From: an uncultured Pelagibacteraceae bacterium
GTDB lineage: Bacteria; Pseudomonadota; Alphaproteobacteria; Pelagibacterales; Pelagibacteraceae
Assembly: GCA_902632275.1 (NCBI GenBank)
Contig: CACPBW010000001.1
Location: 76,111 to 140,110, forward strand
DNA: 64,000 nucleotides
Reading direction: 5' to 3'
The notes under the pieces are model-generated. The model was not told the DNA's origin, made no database searches, and worked only from the letters and a program-made list of their open reading frames with translations. The first letter of the stretch is position 1. Every line of letters starts with the position of its first letter. Positions 1,681 through 19,887 of this stretch are shown here, one piece after another. The position numbers were made by a program, and so were the translations under genes.

Positions 1681-2450
1681 TAGTACGGGGGCTTTGTATA
1701 ACCCTTATCAGATTCTGTAAAAATTTCATAACCATTTTCTGTAATTCCAACTGTATGTTCAAACTGTGCAGAAAGTGATTTATCTTTTGTTACTGCTGTC
1801 CATCCATCATTTAACAGCTTAGATTCAAATTTGCCTGCATTTATCATCGGCTCAATAGTAAAAGTCATTCCAGGAATTAACTCTTTTCCAGTATTTTTAT
1901 TACCATAGTGTAAGACATTAGGTGGTTCATGAAATACATCGCTAATACCATGGCCACAAAAATCTCTTACAACACTAAATCCTTTAGCTTCAACGTAAGT
2001 CTGTATCTCGTGTCCAATATCTCCAAGTTTTACTCCAGGTTTTAGAATTTTGATTGAATTTATTAATGACTCGTAAGTTGCATCAATCAAATTTTTTGCT
2101 TTAACAGAAATATCTGGCACAACAAACATTCGACTTGTATCACCATAAAAATCATTTACGACAGCAGTAACATCAATATTTAATATATCACCTTCAACAA
2201 GCGTTCTATCTGATGGAATTCCATGACAAATAACATGATTTAAGGATGTGCAAACAGATTTTTTAAATCCTCGATAAAACAAAGGTGCAGAATATCCACC
2301 ATTATCTCTAATATACTCAAAACATAAATTATCAATTTTTTCGGTGCTTATTCCTGGTTTAATATGATCGGTAATCATATCTAATGTATTGGATGCAAGT
2401 TTTCCTGCAATCCTCATTTTTTCAAATTTCTCAGAATAATTACTCATCAA
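1680..2450 (-). CDS. map: Type I methionine aminopeptidase
   Basis: GHGISDVFHEPPNVLHYGN, FTIEPM motifs. Confidence 0.95.
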   Translation of the reverse strand: MMSNYSEKFEKMRIAGKLASNTLDMITDHIKPGISTEKIDNLCFEYIRDNGGYSAPLFYRGFKKSVCTSLNHVICHGIPSDRTLVEGDILNIDVTAVVNDFYGDTSRMFVVPDISVKAKNLIDATYESLINSIKILKPGVKLGDIGHEIQTYVEAKGFSVVRDFCGHGISDVFHEPPNVLHYGNKNTGKELIPGMTFTIEPMINAGKFESKLLNDGWTAVTKDKSLSAQFEHTVGITENGYEIFTESDKGYTKPPY

Positions 2451-3126
2451 TAATTTTAATTTTCTTTTCTATCTTAATTTCTTTGTTGTTAATTTCACAT
2501 CTGTAAGCAATAAATTTAACACCATGTTTTTTAGCTAAAAGATAATTTTCATAATATTTTTCATCAATATCCTTAGCGATTTTAAATTTTTTTATACCCT
2601 GAATTTGAGTTAAAAATAAGACATAGGGTTTATAGCCCTTTTTGATTGATTCTTTAAGATTAAGTAAATGTTTTGACCCCCTGCTTGTTATTGCATCTGG
2701 AAATTCACTTATATCATTCTCACGATTTAAAGTAACATTTTTGACTTCGATTAAGTTTTTATCACACAAGAAATCAAATCTTGTATCCTTTGAATATTTA
2801 AATTCTGGTTTTATATTTTTTATATTTTTAAACTCTTCCATTAATTTATTTTCAAGTGCATGTTTTACAATTTTATTTGCTTTATGAGTATTCACTCCAA
2901 CTAAATTATTTTTAACTTTTATAACTTCTAATGTGAACTTAAGTTTACGATTTGGATCATCATTTTTCGTTAACCAAACTTCATTATCTTTATCTAGTAA
3001 TCCTTGCATTGAACCAGTATTTGGACAATGAGCAGTTATGACTTCATTTTTTACTTTTATATCAACAAAAAATCTTTTATATCTTTTGATTAATTTGCCT
3101 TTAATTAAACTATTGGTAAACTTCAT
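2440..3126 (-). CDS. sfsA: SfsA family DNA-binding/sugar fermentation stimulation protein
   Basis: HCPNTGSMQGLL, FPDAITSRGSKHLLNL motifs. Confidence 0.95.
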   Translation of the reverse strand: MKFTNSLIKGKLIKRYKRFFVDIKVKNEVITAHCPNTGSMQGLLDKDNEVWLTKNDDPNRKLKFTLEVIKVKNNLVGVNTHKANKIVKHALENKLMEEFKNIKNIKPEFKYSKDTRFDFLCDKNLIEVKNVTLNRENDISEFPDAITSRGSKHLLNLKESIKKGYKPYVLFLTQIQGIKKFKIAKDIDEKYYENYLLAKKHGVKFIAYRCEINNKEIKIEKKIKIIDE

Positions 3127-3148
3127 TGAAATTTATTTATATTTGTAA

Positions 3149-3901
3149 ATGACAAATAAAAAAGAAATAATTGCAGGAATTATAATAATAGGTAATGAAA
3201 TATTATCTGGTAGAACTCAAGATATTAATACTAAAACTATATCCTTATGGTTGAATACTATTGGTATTAAAGTAACCGAGGTAACAATCATACCTGATAT
3301 AGAGCAAACAATCATTGATACGATAAATGAATTTAAAAAAAGATTTAATTATGTCTTTACATCTGGTGGAATTGGACCAACGCATGACGATATCACTGCT
3401 CAATCTGTTTCAAAGGCTTTTAATATTGAATACGGACCTCACAAAGAAGCAATGAAGATTTTAGAAAATTATTACCAACCAGGAGAATTTTCAGAAGGTA
3501 GACAGAAAATGGCATGGATGCCTGTTTCAGCAAAATTAATTTATAATCCTAGTAGTGGCGCACCAGGTTTTAATGTTGAAAATGTTTATTGCTTACCAGG
3601 TGTGCCATCCATACTTAAATCTATGATTGGAGGCCTAACAAACGAACTTGTTGGTGGAGATCCAATTATAAGTCACACACTCAGCTTAAGAACTGTAGAA
3701 AGTGAAATTGCAAAATCTTTATCAAACGTGCAAGATAATAATAAAGATGTAGATATAGGCAGTTATCCTTTTTTTAAAGCAGGAAAATTAGGAGTATCAA
3801 TTGTTTTAAGATCACCAGAGCAAAAAAAAATTGATAAGTGCAATTCAGAGATACTCAAATTTGTAAAAGAAAAAAATATTGAACTAGTAGAAAATAGTTG
3901 A
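3149..3901 (+). CDS. CinA-like molybdopterin-binding domain protein
   Basis: GNEILSGRTQDINT, TSGGIGPTHDDITAQSVSKAF. Confidence 0.9.
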   Translation: MTNKKEIIAGIIIIGNEILSGRTQDINTKTISLWLNTIGIKVTEVTIIPDIEQTIIDTINEFKKRFNYVFTSGGIGPTHDDITAQSVSKAFNIEYGPHKEAMKILENYYQPGEFSEGRQKMAWMPVSAKLIYNPSSGAPGFNVENVYCLPGVPSILKSMIGGLTNELVGGDPIISHTLSLRTVESEIAKSLSNVQDNNKDVDIGSYPFFKAGKLGVSIVLRSPEQKKIDKCNSEILKFVKEKNIELVENS

Positions 3902-4308
3902 TGCTTTATTTTGCTTACGGAAGTAATTTAAATCACTTTCAAATGAAGAGAAGGTGCAAAGACTCAATATTTTTAAAAAAATATAACCTTAAGGACTTTA
4001 AACTAACTTTTAGAAGCAAATATAGAGCCGCAGATATAGAAAGAAAAAAAAATTCAATTGTTCCAGGTGGTATTTTTGAAATTTCAAAAAGTGATGAAAA
4101 AAAATTAGATATTTATGAAGACTTTCCAATTTTATATAAAAAAATCTTTATCAATTATTATAATAAAAAAATGATGACCTATACCATGGTTGATAAGACT
4201 GAATTTAGGTATCCAACCGAAAGATATTTAAATGTAGTAAAAAAAGGTTATAAAGATTGTAATTTAGATATGAAATATTTAATTACTGCGTTAAAGAATA
4301 CTAGATAA
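3898..4308 (+). CDS. Gamma-glutamylcyclotransferase/AIG2-like family protein
   Basis: LYFAYGSNLNHFQMKRRC N-terminal motif. Confidence 0.8.
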   Translation: MMLYFAYGSNLNHFQMKRRCKDSIFLKKYNLKDFKLTFRSKYRAADIERKKNSIVPGGIFEISKSDEKKLDIYEDFPILYKKIFINYYNKKMMTYTMVDKTEFRYPTERYLNVVKKGYKDCNLDMKYLITALKNTR

Positions 4309-4639
4309 AAGAAACAAAATATTTATGTATTAAATAGCCAACTACCAATAACAGTATTCCTGATCCATAAATTAAATAAAAATTCATACCAAAAGCCTTT
4401 GAAAAGAAAAAAGGCAAAAAGAACAAGTAACTTACTGGAATCGCAATTAATATACTCTTAGTAAAAGTTACAGTTTTATCTACGTCTTTGTATTCGTAGT
4501 ATGAAAATAAAATTGCTATTAATGAGACGATTGGTAATGCAATAATAAATCCTGCTAATTTTGGGTAAATACCAGATAACCAACTTGAAAAAGCTATTAT
4601 TAATGCTGCTATGATTATTTTAAATGTAAAAAATATCAT
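4301..4639 (-). CDS. Small integral membrane protein
   Basis: Hydrophobic 112 aa ORF in tight context. Confidence 0.6.
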   Translation of the reverse strand: MIFFTFKIIIAALIIAFSSWLSGIYPKLAGFIIALPIVSLIAILFSYYEYKDVDKTVTFTKSILIAIPVSYLFFLPFFFSKAFGMNFYLIYGSGILLLVVGYLIHKYFVSFI

Positions 4640-4642
4640 GTT

Positions 4643-5041
4643 TTACTTTTTACATTTTTTACATAATCCAAAAAATTCTAAATTATACTTATTATATCTC
4701 ATACCAGTCTCATCCTGAAAATTAGCTAAATATTTAGAAAGTTTCGGATTGCTTATCTCTGTAACCATTTCACAGTTATCACATATTGAAAATGCTGTTG
4801 CGTTAGATATTGTACAACTATCGTTTTTACATGCTACAAAAGCATTTTTACTCTCAATTTTGTGAATTTTTCCAAGTTTAATTAATCTATCGAGCGCTCT
4901 ATATACTTGCGGAGGTGCTTTTATTCCTTTTTTTTGGACACTAAATAAAATTGAATAAGCTTTTAAAGGTTCTTTAGCTTTTTCAATAATTTCTAAAACT
5001 ATTTGTTGGTTTTTTGAGAGGAAATCTATTTTTTGTGTCAT
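4643..5041 (-). CDS. zur: Fur-family regulator, probable Zur
   Basis: Winged-helix Fur-like ORF with CxxC pairs (CDNCE, CKKCKK), next to znuBCA. Confidence 0.88.
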   Translation of the reverse strand: MTQKIDFLSKNQQIVLEIIEKAKEPLKAYSILFSVQKKGIKAPPQVYRALDRLIKLGKIHKIESKNAFVACKNDSCTISNATAFSICDNCEMVTEISNPKLSKYLANFQDETGMRYNKYNLEFFGLCKKCKK

Positions 5042-5063
5042 AAGTTATTTTATCAAGTTCACA

Positions 5064-5867
5064 TTATTTTTTCAATTGTTTGAATTTTCTTATATTAAAC
5101 ATAGAAAGAATAAACAAAACTAACGCCGCTGTTATAATAGATGGACCAGATGCCGTATTAAATTCCAGTGATGAATATAAACCTAAAACCACCGCCAAAA
5201 GTCCACCGATAATTGAAATAATAATCATTTGTTTTGGATTATTAGCTAAATTTCTAGCCATTGCCGCAGGTATAATAAGCATTCCTGTAATTAATAATAT
5301 TCCAACCATTTTAATTGATATCGCAATAATTGCTGCCATCAAAATTGTAAATACTGCATTTATTTTTTCAGGTTTCATTCCTTCAGCTTCAGCAAGTTCA
5401 TAATTTACTGTTGATGCGAACAGAGGTTTCCAAATTAACTTAAGGATAAGTAGTATTATTGCGCCACCTACCCATATAACTAATAAATCTTTTTTGTTTA
5501 CCGCAAGAATATCCCCAAACAATAAACCCATTATATCAAAGCGGATATATGATAAAAAGCCTATAACAACCAATCCTATTGCAAGGGATGAGTGGGCCAA
5601 TAAACCTAATAAAGCATCACTTGGGAGCTTAGTTGTTTTTTGTAATCTTAATAAAATTAATGCTACGGCAGATGAAATTAACAATACTGAAAAAGAAATA
5701 TTTATATCAAATGAAAAAGCAAGAGTTACACCTAATAATGAGGAGTGAGCTAATGTTCCAGCAAAAAAGGATAATCTTCTCCAAATTACAAAACATCCTA
5801 GTGGCCCTGTTACTAAAGCTACACCAAGACCAGCAAAAAGTGCTCTTATAAAAAAATCATCAAACAT
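5064..5867 (-). CDS. znuB: Zinc ABC transporter permease
   Basis: ABC-3 family membrane protein; GPLGCFVIWRRLSFFAGTLAHSSLLG. Confidence 0.92.
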   Translation of the reverse strand: MFDDFFIRALFAGLGVALVTGPLGCFVIWRRLSFFAGTLAHSSLLGVTLAFSFDINISFSVLLISSAVALILLRLQKTTKLPSDALLGLLAHSSLAIGLVVIGFLSYIRFDIMGLLFGDILAVNKKDLLVIWVGGAIILLILKLIWKPLFASTVNYELAEAEGMKPEKINAVFTILMAAIIAISIKMVGILLITGMLIIPAAMARNLANNPKQMIIISIIGGLLAVVLGLYSSLEFNTASGPSIITAALVLFILSMFNIRKFKQLKK

Positions 5868-6617
5868 TTATTTTTTTGTTTCTATTGTTCCATCTGGAGA
5901 GTGAGTATGATCATGGTCGTGTTCATAAACTGATAAAATTGTTGATGCACGATCACCAAATAACTCTTTATACTTACTGTCTTTTACAACTGTTTGTGGT
6001 GTTCCAGAGCAACACACGTGTCCATTAAGGCATAAAACATGGTCCGTTGCGGACATAACCACATGTAAATCGTGAGATATAAGTAATATACCACAACCTA
6101 GTTTTTCAGAAATTTCTTTTATTAATTCGTACAACGCTAGTTCACCTTTAAAATCTACACCCTGAACAGGTTCATCTAATACTAAAAGATCCGGTTTTTT
6201 TGATATAGCTCTTGCAATCAACACTCTTTGAAATTCACCACCAGACAAATTTCTTAAATCATTATTTTTTAAGTGGTCAACACCAGTAAGTTTTAACGCA
6301 TTATTAATTTCATCATTAGTGAGAACTTCAGTTAACAACATAAAATCAGATACCCTAATAGGTAATGTCCAATCAATTGAAATTTTCTGAGGTACATAGC
6401 CAATTTTATCTGTATATTTTTCTACTTTTCCCTCTATATTTTTGTAAATTCCTAAAGCGATTTTAGCTGTTGTAGATTTTCCAGATCCATTTGGTCCTAT
6501 TAAAGTAACAATTTGCCCTTTTTTAACCTCTAAGGAAACACCTTTTACTAACCACTTGTTATCAAGCATAACACCGGTGTTTTCTAACTTAACTAGAATA
6601 TTATTATTTAAACTCAT
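5868..6617 (-). CDS. znuC: Zinc ABC transporter ATP-binding protein
   Basis: Walker A GPNGSGKST, LSGGEFQRVLIARA, LLVLDEP. Confidence 0.93.
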   Translation of the reverse strand: MSLNNNILVKLENTGVMLDNKWLVKGVSLEVKKGQIVTLIGPNGSGKSTTAKIALGIYKNIEGKVEKYTDKIGYVPQKISIDWTLPIRVSDFMLLTEVLTNDEINNALKLTGVDHLKNNDLRNLSGGEFQRVLIARAISKKPDLLVLDEPVQGVDFKGELALYELIKEISEKLGCGILLISHDLHVVMSATDHVLCLNGHVCCSGTPQTVVKDSKYKELFGDRASTILSVYEHDHDHTHSPDGTIETKK

Positions 6618-6640
6618 TTTTTTGTTGACTAATCATATTT

Positions 6641-6671
6641 GTTATAATATTACGCTTTGTTATAATATAAC
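6641..6671. promoter_or_regulatory. Two adjacent Zur-box-like palindromes between divergent znuC and znuA
   Basis: GTTATAATATTAC (6641-6653) and GTTATAATATAAC (6659-6671), close to the known E. coli-type Zur consensus TGTTATANTATAACA. Confidence 0.8.
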
Positions 6672-6683
6672 ATTTTTAAAATT

Positions 6684-7697
6684 ATGCACTTAAAAAAAAA
6701 AATTCCTCTAATTATATCAATAATTTCAGCTTTATTTTATTTTTCTGCATTAAAAGCAGAAATTAAGGTAGTAACTTCAATAAAACCAATACATTCATTG
6801 GTAAGTTATATAATGGAAGGCGTTGGCTCGCCTGATTTAATAGTTGATGGATACAATTCTCCACATGGATTTAGCTTAAAACCATCTCATGCTAAAATGC
6901 TACAAGAGGCTGATATTGTAATATATGTTGGTGAAGGTCTTGAGGAATTCTTAGAAAAACCTTTGGAGTCTTTAGCTCAGAACGCAGTTAAATTTGAATT
7001 ACTTAAGCAAAGTGGAATGAAAAAATTAAAGTTCAGAGAAAGAAATATTTTTGAAGGTCACGATGATCATGACGACCATGGACACGGAAAAAAGAAAAAA
7101 GACGATCATGAAGATCACGACCATGGCAAAAAAGCAAAGAAAGAGGATCATGATAATCACGGACATGACGACCATGGACACGGACATGGTGAGTTTGATC
7201 CACATATTTGGTTAGACCCAATGAATGCAAAAATAATTGTTAAAAAAGTAACAAATCAGTTATCAAAATTAGATAAAGAAAACAGCTCAACCTATAAATC
7301 AAATTCTAAAAAAGCATTAAAAGAAATTGATAATCTTATTAAACAAGTAAAATCAGACATTAACAAAGACGTTAAGGTCGTAGTATTCCATGATGCATAC
7401 CAATATTTTGAAAAAAGATTTGATTTAAATATTATTGGAGCATTAACTGTAAATACTGATGTTTTACCTGGTGCAGAACAACTTGCAGAGATTAGAGAAG
7501 TAATTGAACATGAAAAAGTAACATGTGTTCTTTCAGAACCTCAGTTTAACCCTCAGATAATTGAAATAATAGCGAAAGATACAAACACAAACATGGGAGT
7601 TTTGGATCCATTAGGAGCTAATCTTGTTAAAGGAAAAAACCTATACTTTGATTTGATTAAAAATATCTCAATTTCTTTTGAAAATTGTAAGAAATAG
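6684..7697 (+). CDS. znuA: Zinc ABC transporter substrate-binding protein with His/Asp-rich loop
   Basis: HGFSLKPSHAKMLQEAD, FDPHIWLDP, His-rich segment GHDDHDDHGHGKKKKDDHEDHDHG. Confidence 0.95.
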   Translation: MHLKKKIPLIISIISALFYFSALKAEIKVVTSIKPIHSLVSYIMEGVGSPDLIVDGYNSPHGFSLKPSHAKMLQEADIVIYVGEGLEEFLEKPLESLAQNAVKFELLKQSGMKKLKFRERNIFEGHDDHDDHGHGKKKKDDHEDHDHGKKAKKEDHDNHGHDDHGHGHGEFDPHIWLDPMNAKIIVKKVTNQLSKLDKENSSTYKSNSKKALKEIDNLIKQVKSDINKDVKVVVFHDAYQYFEKRFDLNIIGALTVNTDVLPGAEQLAEIREVIEHEKVTCVLSEPQFNPQIIEIIAKDTNTNMGVLDPLGANLVKGKNLYFDLIKNISISFENCKK

Positions 7698-7747
7698 TTC
7701 TTAAAACTAAAAAAAAGGGTCTTTTTAGCACATTGGAATTTTAAAAA

Positions 7748-7768
7748 ATCCGACTAGATCAGTCGGGT
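7748..7768. other. Stable hairpin directly abutting the aox start codon
   Basis: ATCCGACT-agatc-AGTCGGGT, 8 bp stem (one GU) ending one base before ATG 7769; on the minus strand it is followed by T6. Confidence 0.65.
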
Positions 7769-8467
7769 ATGGATGATTTAAGTAAACATTTAAAACCAAA
7801 AAACTTAAGCGACAAGGTAGCTTTAGGTTTCACTAAATTTTTAAGATTTTTAGCAGATACTTTTTTTAGAAAAAGATATGGGCACAGGGCAGTTGTTTTA
7901 GAAACTGTTGCTGCGGTTCCTGGTATGGTCGCAGGAATGTTAATTCATTTTAAATCACTACGAAAGATGGAGGATGATAAAGGTTGGATAAAAACGCTTT
8001 TGGAGGAAGCTGAAAATGAAAGAATGCATCTGATGACATTTATTCATATAGCAAAACCAACTTGGATTGAACGAATAATTATTTTAATTGCACAATTTAT
8101 ATTTATTATAACTTATGGATTTATATACTTAGTATCACAAAGAACAGCTCACAGGATTGTAGGATATTTTGAGGAAGAGGCAGTTAGAAGTTATACTGAG
8201 TACTTACATGAATTAGAAACAGGTAAGATTAAAGATCAACCAGCACCTGAAATTGCAATAAACTATTGGAATTTACCTTTACACTCTACTTTAAAAGATG
8301 TTGTAAAAGTTATAAGAGATGATGAAGCAGGTCACAGGGATGTTAATCATAACTTTGCTGACGTGATTGATAGACGAACAAGGATTTATAAATCAATCAA
8401 TATTGAGAAAAAAAATAAAAAGCAAGTTAATAAAGACAGCACTAATCAGGAAGTAAAAGAAAATTAA
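7769..8467 (+). CDS. aox: Alternative oxidase (di-iron quinol oxidase)
   Basis: [48 protein letters not shown] di-iron ligand motifs. Confidence 0.93.
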
Positions 8468-8468
8468 A

Positions 8469-8918
8469 ATGGAAAAAAATTTAAATATTCTGTGGGCATC
8501 AACTGGCGGTAATGCAGAAGGCGTTGCAAATCGATTAAATGAAAAAGCTGGTCAATTAGGAATTAAAATAGATCAACAAGAGTTGAATGATGTATCAATA
8601 AAAAAATTTTCAGAAATGAAAAATGTTGCAGTAGTGACTTCAACATTTGGAGAAGGAGACTTTCCTGCAAACGGTGAGGAATTTTGGCAAGATATTGAAA
8701 ATAAAGATTTAGACCTTAAAGAAATGAATTATAGTATATGTGCGTTAGGTGATAGGTCGCATGATATTTTTTGTGGAGCTGGAAAGAAGCTAGATGAAAA
8801 ATTAATTAAATCAGGTGCCAATAAGATTTTAGACAGACAAGAATGCGATGGATCTGATGAAGGTTCTGAAGAATGGTCAGAAAACTTTTTAAAAAAAATA
8901 AATGGAATGCTAACTTAA
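8469..8918 (+). CDS. Flavodoxin domain protein
   Basis: ASTGGNAEGVANRL FMN-binding loop, TSTFGEGDFPANG, CALGDRSHDIFCGAG. Confidence 0.9.
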   Translation: MEKNLNILWASTGGNAEGVANRLNEKAGQLGIKIDQQELNDVSIKKFSEMKNVAVVTSTFGEGDFPANGEEFWQDIENKDLDLKEMNYSICALGDRSHDIFCGAGKKLDEKLIKSGANKILDRQECDGSDEGSEEWSENFLKKINGMLT

Positions 8919-8925
8919 TTTAAAT

Positions 8926-9432
8926 ATGAAAAAAATTTATTTAATCTTAGTAATATCGATATTGTTTAATACAACTTTATTTGCTGATAAAAATATGAAG
9001 ATTGGCTCTAAGGGTAAATTATCTGATGTAACAAGAACTATAGAAGTAAAAATGTATGATAATTATTATGAACCAAATGTTTTCAAAATTAAAAAAGGTG
9101 AAACTGTAAAATTTAAAGTGAAAAATTTAGGTGAATTAGTTCATGAATTTAATATTGCTAATCCAATGATGCATATTAAACATCAGCCAGAGATGGAACT
9201 CATGGTTGAGAATGAGATATTATTAGGTGATAGAATTGATAAAGACAAAATGCAAAAAATGGCTGCAATGGATAAATCAATGGGCCATTCCCACAGCAAT
9301 AGTGTTTTATTAGCTCCAAAAGAAGAGGGGACTTTAATTTGGAAATTTGAAAACGCTGTAAATATCGAGATAGCATGCAATGTTCCTGGTCATTATCAAG
9401 CTGGCATGATTGCAGCAGTTAATCTAGACTAA
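8926..9432 (+). CDS. Exported cupredoxin-like copper-binding protein
   Basis: Signal peptide; GETVKFKVKNLGELVHEFNI and CNVPGHYQAGM blue-copper motif. Confidence 0.88.
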   Translation: MKKIYLILVISILFNTTLFADKNMKIGSKGKLSDVTRTIEVKMYDNYYEPNVFKIKKGETVKFKVKNLGELVHEFNIANPMMHIKHQPEMELMVENEILLGDRIDKDKMQKMAAMDKSMGHSHSNSVLLAPKEEGTLIWKFENAVNIEIACNVPGHYQAGMIAAVNLD

Positions 9433-9444
9433 AGTTTTTTAATA

Positions 9445-9888
9445 ATGAGTTCTGAAGCGATTAAATTTAACTGGAATTGCAAACATACTTGGAGAAGAAG
9501 CGCTAAAAATACTGCCTGGTGTTTACTTGGTTGTGCAATTGGGGATTTTGGAACAATTTTATTTTTTCAAATTACAAAAATACCATTTCCTGTACTAGGA
9601 ATTATGACACTTGCTATCATCAATGGATTGATAACAAGTATTATTTTAGAAACTATAATTTTGTTACGACAAAATTTTAAATTTTCTAATGCTTTAAAAA
9701 CAGCATTAGGAATGAGCTTTATCTCTATGATTAGCATGGAAGTTGCGATGAATTTTACTGATTATCTACTTACTGGCGGCGCGATACTTACATGGTGGGT
9801 TGTACCAATTATGCTTATAGTAGGATTTTTAACCCCTTGGCCTTATAATTATTGGAGATTAAAAAAGTTCAATATTAGTTGTCATTAA
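9445..9888 (+). CDS. DUF4396-like membrane protein
   Basis: Multi-TM ORF; ALGMSFISMISMEVAMNFTDYLLTGG and LTPWPYNYWRLKKF. Confidence 0.65.
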   Translation: MSSEAIKFNWNCKHTWRRSAKNTAWCLLGCAIGDFGTILFFQITKIPFPVLGIMTLAIINGLITSIILETIILLRQNFKFSNALKTALGMSFISMISMEVAMNFTDYLLTGGAILTWWVVPIMLIVGFLTPWPYNYWRLKKFNISCH

Positions 9889-18314: not shown

Positions 18315-18363
18315 TGGTGCCCCCGCACGGACTCGAACCGCGGACCTATTGATTACAAATCAA
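18315..18363 (-). repeat. Detached 3' half of tRNA-Thr (att-like duplicate)
   Basis: 49 nt identical to 19812-19860. Confidence 0.93.
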
Positions 18364-18389
18364 GAATCTAAACTCAAAAAGACAAACAC

Positions 18390-18402
18390 TATCAACGTTA
18401 AT
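18390..18402. repeat. Inverted repeat near left islet end (atcaacgttaatt)
   Basis: Reverse complement aattaacgttgat near 19787-19799. Confidence 0.6.
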
Positions 18403-18416
18403 TGAAAGTTATTACA

Positions 18417-18439
18417 AATCTGTACACACTATAGTCACA
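18417..18439 (+). repeat. Subterminal direct repeat, left copy
   Basis: aatctgtacacactatagtcaca vs 19724-19746 aatctgttcacactatagtcaca, 22/23. Confidence 0.85.
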
Positions 18440-18455
18440 ATGATAAAGTTTTCTT

Positions 18456-18932
18456 ATGAAAGATTTTGATATCAAGTCTTTAACTGACCAAGAAGTTATT
18501 TCTTTGTATCCAAAAACTTTGCAAGAATTAAAAAATAGAAAAATAATAAGAACAAATAATTTAGTTGGAGATTTAGGAGAGTATTGGTGTATTAAAAAAT
18601 ATAATGAGATTGCGGGACTACCTAAACTTCAAGATGCTCCGGAGAGCACAAAAAATATTGATGCAATCAGCGTTAAAGGCGAAAGATATGCAATTAAATC
18701 TACATCAGGATCAGGGACAAGTACTTTTGCAAGTATTCCTATAAATGATGACACAAAACCACTTTTTGAATATGTAGTTTTAGTTCTTTTTGATAAAGCA
18801 TATGTTTTAAAAGAAATTTATGAATTAAATTGGGAACAATTTTTGAAATTTAGAAGAATGAAGCCACCAGAAAATAAGTGGAATATTAGAATAACAAAAA
18901 AATTAAAAGAAGAAGCCAAAAGAATATTTTAA
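18456..18932 (+). CDS. Putative PD-(D/E)XK-like / DUF6998-like protein, islet cargo
   Basis: RTNNLVGDLGEYWCIKKYN...TKNIDAISVKGERYAIKSTSGSGT: E...D-x(n)-xxK arrangement. Confidence 0.6.
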   Translation: MKDFDIKSLTDQEVISLYPKTLQELKNRKIIRTNNLVGDLGEYWCIKKYNEIAGLPKLQDAPESTKNIDAISVKGERYAIKSTSGSGTSTFASIPINDDTKPLFEYVVLVLFDKAYVLKEIYELNWEQFLKFRRMKPPENKWNIRITKKLKEEAKRIF

Positions 18933-18933
18933 A

Positions 18934-19170
18934 ATGAAAAAACTTTTAGCGATCGTGGTTCTGGGCTTGTTCTTAACTAGCAAAGCTTTGGCTTGTGGTG
19001 GAGACTTTTATACTGGCTTATTTGATTTTTCAAAAGAACATAAGATATGTGGAAAGTATGCAAGATCTTTGGATGGAGATAGCTTTCAAAAAAATGATGC
19101 ATACTGTGACTGCAGAGAAAGGTTAGATAATAAAAAAAAATACGGTATTGAAAAAATTTTTGATGATTAA
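18934..19170 (+). CDS. Small secreted Cys-containing protein, islet cargo
   Basis: Signal peptide MKKLLAIVVLGLFLTSKALA, mature part with 4 Cys. Confidence 0.65.
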   Translation: MKKLLAIVVLGLFLTSKALACGGDFYTGLFDFSKEHKICGKYARSLDGDSFQKNDAYCDCRERLDNKKKYGIEKIFDD

Positions 19171-19171
19171 T

Positions 19172-19693
19172 ATGAAAAAACTTTTAGGGATCGTGGTTCT
19201 AGGTTTGTTGATAAATTCCTGTTCAGATTTAAAAAATAAATCAGCTTTAGAAAATTGTGCAACTAAAACTTATTTAGAAGATGGTGAGGGAATGAGAGCT
19301 AATAAATATTATTATACAGAAAATGACTGGGTGATACTTAGTGACAAAAAATTTTTAGAAAAAACAAAAAAAATGGTACAAGAACTACCCAATATAATCC
19401 CTGAATCAAAATATTATAAAAAAATAGAAGGTATCCACTCAAAATCTTTTGATGAAAAAGTTAAAATTCTACATCAAAATTATGTACAAATTAAAAATTA
19501 TTCAAAGAACCCTTTTTTTATAATCAATACGATGCCATATATGTTAGAAAGAAGTGATCTTTTAAAAAAAAAAATTCCAAAATTATCTTTAAAAAAGAAG
19601 AGAAACCTGATTGGATTTATAGAGTTTTATCAAAACTGTGAAAGAGCAAGTATAAGAAATCCTGAAACATTTAAATTAAAATACGTAGATTAA
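19172..19693 (+). CDS. Putative lipoprotein, islet cargo
   Basis: MKKLLGIVVLGLLINSCSD: signal peptide with lipobox-like INSC. Confidence 0.65.
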   Translation: MKKLLGIVVLGLLINSCSDLKNKSALENCATKTYLEDGEGMRANKYYYTENDWVILSDKKFLEKTKKMVQELPNIIPESKYYKKIEGIHSKSFDEKVKILHQNYVQIKNYSKNPFFIINTMPYMLERSDLLKKKIPKLSLKKKRNLIGFIEFYQNCERASIRNPETFKLKYVD

Positions 19694-19723
19694 AAAGACT
19701 AAAAGAATACTTGATTAATACAC

Positions 19724-19746
19724 AATCTGTTCACACTATAGTCACA
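19724..19746 (+). repeat. Subterminal direct repeat, right copy
   Basis: See 18417-18439. Confidence 0.85.
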
Positions 19747-19811
19747 CTCACTAGAGAAATTTGAATGATATTAAAATTATAAAAAAAATTAACGTTGATT
19801 TTATTGATTGA

Positions 19812-19887
19812 TGGTGCCCCCGCACGGACTCGAACCGCGGACCTATTGATTACAAATCAATTGCTCTACCAGCTGAGCTACAAGGGC
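19812..19887 (-). tRNA. tRNA-Thr(TGT)
   Basis: GCCCTTGTAGCTCAGCTGGTAGAGCAATTGATTTGTAATCAATAGGTCCGCGGTTCGAGTCCGTGCGGGGGCACCA. Confidence 0.95.

Follow-up and report, generated by a model that had tools for sequence, protein, structure and literature searches.

The islet examined here lies at a tRNA-Thr(TGT) gene of an uncultured Pelagibacteraceae (SAR11) bacterium, is about 1.5 kb long, is framed by copies of the tRNA 3' half and encodes no recombinase, and the question that it raises is how such an islet could have entered this site and whether it is still able to move. The locus was analysed within a stretch of 64,000 nucleotides (hereafter the window), for which an initial annotation had proposed either a minimal non-autonomous element mobilised in trans or a decayed remnant. 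With a probability of roughly 0.83, we read the islet as a non-autonomous integrative cassette, which has the attachment ends of a tyrosine integrase specific for tRNA-Thr(TGT), carries cargo in place of the integrase gene, and would be moved by an integrase acting in trans. The features of the islet, from left to right, are the following.

18315-18363 (-): distal att core, a duplicate of the tRNA-Thr(TGT) 3' half, running from the anticodon stem (TTGATTACAAATCAA, 18349-18363) to the tRNA 3' end
18391-18403 (+): left inverted-repeat element ATCAACGTTAATT
18423-18444 (+): left arm, two 11-bp-period units, TACACACTATA and GTCACAATGAT
18441-18458 (+): promoter-like box TGATAAAGTTTTCTTATG, conserved in islets and ending in the cargo 1 start codon
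18456-18932 (+): cargo 1, a 158-aa restriction-endonuclease-like protein
18934-19170 (+): cargo 2, a 78-aa protein with a signal-peptide-like N-terminus and no family match
19172-19693 (+): cargo 3, a 173-aa lipoprotein-like protein with no family match above cut-off
19706-19716 (+): right-end motif AATACTTGATT (family form CGACTACTTGATT)
19719-19751 (+): right arm, three 11-bp-period units, TACACAATCTG, TTCACACTATA and GTCACACTCAC
19787-19799 (+): right inverted-repeat element AATTAACGTTGAT
19812-19887 (-): intact tRNA-Thr(TGT), of which 19812-19860 forms the proximal att core

As annotated, the two 49-nt copies of the tRNA 3' half were identical (shuffled sequences would be expected to yield none), and the 23-nt direct repeat just inside the ends (18417-18439 and 19724-19746) matched at 22 of 23 positions, was absent elsewhere in the window and arose in none of 100 shuffles. 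This repeat proved to be a portion of a larger array with an 11-bp period, two units of which lie on the left and three on the right, and a search of the draft genome (31 contigs, ~75% complete) for its 20-nt core, allowing up to three mismatches, returned only these two places. By comparison with other loci described below, the left arm probably represents integrase arm-type sites. The annotated 13-nt inverted repeat was likewise exact, though taken alone it is only weakly above chance, with at least two matches at one mismatch obtained in 5 of 100 shuffles; the stretch around its left element is kept across end types (CAACAATAAT-like). A by-eye comparison of the inverted repeat with the IHF consensus gave no match.

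The three cargo genes were recovered as ORFs on the same strand, and an integrase is absent from the window islet, as had been stated. A total of 94 nt of end sequence precedes the ATG of cargo 1, and the box TGATAAAGTTTTCTTATG may act as a promoter. The cargo 1 product matched the PADLOC Type II methyl-directed REase family (E 5.5e-51), Pfam DUF6998 (E 6.8e-7) and, in the structure database, Eco15I (PDB 8q5m, E 7.6e-8). A 72%-identical homologue (L235, G175:C9, ~7822-8284) is preceded by a hisH-like gene and followed by a hisA-like gene, with no tRNA at the locus, suggesting that this restriction-like family inserts elsewhere too. Cargo 2 and cargo 3 are predicted to be two small exported proteins. 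The 5' ends of these two genes (18929-18976 and 19167-19214) are near-identical (88% over 48 nt) and encode the signal peptide MKKLLxIVVLGLL; this piece of DNA occurs in their own genome in these two copies only, is also present in the islets of genomes G017 and G009, and resembles a secretion-signal module put to repeated use.

The closest relative of the window, AG-919-O05 (G017), shares 98.1% identity over 2715 bp of the left flank and 94.2% over 4303 bp of the right flank, and its left islet end is 90% alike, yet its cargo is unrelated to that of the window except for a 34-nt signal-peptide piece; its own restriction-like protein is distant (35%) from that of the window. Outside the window, the arm was found in only two named records, both from uncultured Pelagibacteraceae (SAR11) genomes. 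One of these (L003) retains the cores, arms and inverted-repeat elements of both ends around differing cargo, and the other (L004, contained whole in L234) is near kin of the window, again with differing cargo. A further locus (L055, genome G009) shares the left-flank glycosyltransferase gene with the window (71-72%) and holds other islet cargo. The initial annotation had anticipated different cargo between the same repeats, and this expectation was borne out in AG-919-O05, L003 and L055.

The islet belongs to a larger family. The tRNA-Thr(TGT) core was matched in 293 of 399 genomes of the window's genus (SAR11), and in about 105 of the 399 there were two to five core copies at one locus, bounding mostly integrase-less islets; this last figure is a hand count and a lower bound, as many of the genomes are in fragments and the search missed distal cores that have more mismatches. 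Examination of 37 multi-core loci (L005-L041) and 23 single-core loci (L042-L064) delimited 51 islets, most of them 0.7-2.5 kb in length and the largest 9.8 kb, with tandem arrays extending to four islets (one array). Empty sites, another expectation of a mobile element, were also recovered: in 11 of the 23 single-core loci, the nadK stop codon meets the tRNA core directly or within a few bases, and the nadK flank also precedes the distal core at filled sites (for instance, L026, L028 and L032). Two islets, L013_0 and L040_0 in hosts G106 and G244, are 99.9% identical over 1080 bp, whilst the host flanks are 83.3% identical over 2002 bp, and the two occupy different array positions; this comparison indicates a recent transfer of the whole islet between species.

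Cargo across the family is diverse, with 146 proteins falling into 109 clusters. Among the 88 proteins of short islets were restriction-related domains (Mrr, MrcB, SRA, DpnI and T5orf172), together with Mom, trypsin-like and PADLOC candidate families. A prepilin-type N-terminal motif was present in 13 of the 88, an unusual expansion. A 4-kb islet of G106 (L013, 3123-7127) contains six to seven genes, most of which are mutually related and have further relatives in the 13-protein cargo cluster, the largest of all. Mixed ends were seen in some islets (for instance, L011, L013_2, L025 and L055), indicating that homologous exchange between islets also happens. The same cargo gene is found under different end types in L026 and L032 (93% over 960 bp), L011 and L030 have a common cargo gene under unlike end types, and L009 has apparently lost its right arms.

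The ends of the islets are more constant. When counted as a start codon that begins a frame of 60 codons or more (background 0.009 per position), the first cargo start is placed at precisely 95 nt inward of the core in 27 of 42 short islets, and at 92-98 nt in 37 of the 42. A conserved TGATAAAGTTTT-like box lies ahead of this start, which we infer to be a promoter, with the message starting at or near the AUG. Several types of arm unit were distinguished, including TACACACTATA/GTCACA, GACAACAATCT, GTCACACTNAC and CGACACACGTA, and the left and right arms match within an islet (mean score 13.7, versus 8.3 +/- 0.5 for shuffled partners; 0 of 10,000 shuffles). Most of ~40 islets with unrelated cargo retain the arms on either side as well as the 94-nt left end. 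In most islets the motif CGACTACTTGATT stands directly before the right arms, a related form being present in the viral integrase element L086, and exact GACYACTTGATT matches, compared with core positions in 32 genomes, were located at islet right ends in 15 of 17 cases.

The larger islets have another end type, which also possesses matched 11-bp repeats. A 7.7-kb element at the same tRNA-Thr (L006, genome G039, 2001-9743) encodes a second kind of tyrosine integrase and a 768-aa primase/helicase-like protein, and it has arms similar to those of the larger islets that lack an integrase (L009, L014, L017, L020, L021, L033 and L036). These apparently constitute a second independent system of helper and cassettes.

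The short islets encode no integrase, none being present among the families shown for their 88 proteins; one islet, in genome G373, holds a fragment. The most informative integrase locus is the 8.9-kb viral contig L086, where the same tRNA-Thr core is followed, ~95 nt on, by the start of a 328-aa tyrosine integrase gene. It has 11-bp arms on both sides, the arm word CCGCAATCTGTCCGCA being identical in islet L013_3, and its AAA helicase-like and terminase small-subunit genes, as a satellite would have, suggest that it is satellite-like. In the SAR11 genome G248 the same tRNA is adjoined by an integrase gene whose product is 73% identical, and the CTGCAACA arms there are like those of islets L034 and L035. 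In G373, a 78-aa N-terminal integrase fragment lies inside an islet at the usual integrase start, with arms like those of L010 and L016, whilst a 76%-identical integrase in G253 is apparently located at a tRNA-Asn. Chromosomal tRNA-Thr integrases of the L086/G248 type are rare, amounting to one intact gene and one fragment in 398 genomes. In the arm-match control, which was limited to 20 query shuffles, L086 and L107 stood clear and L091 less so.

The reading of the repeats as att cores plus arm sites was strengthened by these loci, as the islet ends copy the layout found upstream of the L086 and G248 tyrosine integrase genes. Since the same order of core, ~95 nt, two repeats and start codon is found at the integrase genes, the islets look like attP ends that bear cargo in place of the integrase. 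The predicted mobilisation in trans is strongly supported by the empty sites, the exchange of cargo and these integrase-linked ends taken together.

It had further been suggested that the arm repeat would be found next to an integrase gene, and this held in part: L086 and G248 share the core and have arms of the same kind, but the exact arm of the window (type A) was not found beside an integrase. A search of IMG/VR for the exact arm CTGTNCACACTATAGTCACA returned no match; a relaxed 17-mer of the type-A arm returned one unrelated match, which lay in a coding stretch and not upstream of an integrase. The type-B arm was located in 16 viral stretches of IMG/VR, none recognisably of SAR11, and in five of these the arm word stands directly before the gene of a tyrosine integrase, a result in favour of reading the repeats as arms. 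The words concerned, GACAACAATCTGACAACA or GGCAACAATCTGGCAACA, lie 8-28 nt before the integrase genes of unrelated viral contigs (L140, L146, L147, L148 and L151), and may be a widespread integrase arm word. IMG/VR searches with the core recovered mostly phage-carried tRNA-Thr genes, L086 being the exception, and searches of INPHARED with the L086 attachment region and the islet as queries recovered essentially tRNA similarity. A wider integrase search of viral contigs retrieved relatives of 27-38% identity, and of 80 loci scanned none had the tRNA-Thr core and none had a GC content below 37%. SAR11 integrases at several other tRNAs (L092-L106) are preceded by a similar succession of RNA-gene end, ~90-100 nt, short direct repeats and integrase start.

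The layout of the islets, their specificity for this tRNA, the empty sites, the swaps of cargo, the passage of a whole islet between species and the matching layout at integrase genes are all observed. The core corresponds to the part of the tRNA from the anticodon to the 3' end, with arm-type repeats of 11-bp period on each side, and the cargo, which in the window consists of one restriction-like enzyme and two small proteins predicted to be exported, sits where autonomous elements start their integrase gene. The proposed mechanism would proceed as follows. An integrase from a satellite or phage, acting in trans, would excise the cassette and insert it at the tRNA; insertion at the anticodon-stem part would restore the tRNA and leave a displaced core, and repeated insertion events would stack cassettes in tandem. 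The left end would act as a promoter, such that the cargo message would start at or near its AUG. The cell-to-cell route is the least certain step: a 1.5-kb circle is small for packaging, hence co-excision with an adjacent satellite (accretion), transduction of host DNA and DNA uptake are all candidate routes.

The alternative already raised by the initial annotation is that the islets are remnants of integrase-bearing islands that have lost their integrase and are now fixed and dying. The G373 fragment, positioned at the integrase start, does indicate that some islets derive from complete elements by loss, and L009 seemingly lacks right arms. Dead remnants, however, should neither keep matched ends nor move, and this reading fits poorly with arms and left ends that remain intact around unrelated cargo, with a fixed cargo start, with a near-identical islet at another array position in hosts whose flanks are only 83% identical, and with cargo that differs where host flanks are 94-98% identical; we regard it as highly improbable for the family. 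Slightly less so, though still improbable, is the view that the ends are simply homology arms and that the islets spread today by homologous recombination of taken-up or transduced DNA, with no integrase involved. Mixed ends, the same cargo under different end types (L026/L032 and L011/L030) and the rarity of intact helpers in chromosomes would all accord with it, but it leaves unexplained why 11-bp-period repeats match from left to right, why the ends copy integrase attachment-site layouts, and how islets enter empty sites that have no arms.

Most islet-bearing genomes encode, elsewhere in the chromosome, a single conserved Xer-like gene (301-317 aa) as their tyrosine recombinase, and in the closed genome G385, which has two islets, it was the only one detected. 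The gene is Xer-like by look only, its scores for the Xer family falling below curated cut-offs. That this recombinase moves the islets is nevertheless extremely unlikely, as it consists of SAM-like and catalytic domains only and is not expected to read arms, and the arms and layout of the islets match phage-type integrases instead.

A broader proposition can be put forward, to which we assign about even odds: SAR11 may maintain an integron-like cassette economy without an integron, in which standard ends and a built-in promoter carry one to few genes of any kind, several lineages of arm specificity coexist and each depends on a dedicated satellite or phage integrase acting in trans, and a single tRNA-Thr is where the cassettes accumulate in stacks and are exchanged.

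Several known systems bear comparison. Additive flexible genomic island cassettes have been described at tRNAs of streamlined marine bacteria, namely Ca. Actinomarinales (PMC7771536) and Methylophilaceae (PMC10872708). The SAR11 islets are like these in their small size, tRNA-fragment repeats, tandem growth at one tRNA and mostly unknown genes that vary among close relatives, a repeated tRNA fragment bounding the variable cargo in each case. They differ in having fixed ends, matched integrase arms, a fixed cargo start and candidate cognate integrases, whereas the end structure and recombinase of the additive cassettes are left undefined in the passages compared. The cis-mobilizable elements (CIMEs), which are described as moving by accretion with adjacent islands, include tandem islands without an integrase at ssrA of Dehalococcoides (PMC3146451). 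The SAR11 islets are likewise att-flanked, lack integrase and transfer genes, and lie in tandem beside complete elements at one site, but they are much smaller, have standard ends and exchangeable cargo, and comprise many lineages.

Phage satellites, including tycheposons, VEIMEs and PICMIs (PMC10803314, PMC11389934), carry an integrase of their own, and satellites of this kind are likely helpers, given that L086 and L006 carry an integrase and helicase/primase-type genes and lie at or target the same tRNA-Thr. The SAR11 islets themselves encode no integrase, replication or packaging gene, and none is present in the window islet. The CALIN arrays also consist of small gene cassettes with a recombinase in trans, in that case the integron integrase (PMC11389934); the sites of the SAR11 islets are, by contrast, tRNA cores with phage-type arms, and the junctions (tRNA-Thr 3' half with arms on both sides) and the phage-type integrases adjoining such sites set them apart from integrons and CALIN. 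The islets also differ from MITEs, which are short, non-coding and moved by a transposase, in being ~60-97% coding and site-specific at a tRNA. A literature search of incomplete coverage found no description of these SAR11 cassettes or their ends. Both tRNA-anchored cassettes and cis-mobilizable elements are thus already known, and the SAR11 islets are a variant with standard integrase-type ends.

The SAR11 bacteria are among the most abundant marine bacterial groups; their genomes are very small, and few mobile elements have been recognised in them. The presence of exchangeable one-to-few-gene cassettes in about a quarter of the sampled SAR11 species genomes would explain in concrete terms how genes at tRNAs could turn over quickly, several of the cassette genes being restriction-like, defence-candidate or pilin-like. 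The islets would also show selection for elements that retain only the docking ends of an integrase, and would provide a search rule for such cassettes elsewhere, namely a tRNA 3' half, ~95 nt, 11-bp repeats and a start codon. Most likely moved by phages or phage satellites that visit the cell, the islets seem to represent a frequent, hitherto unexplained gene-swap route in some of the ocean's commonest bacteria.
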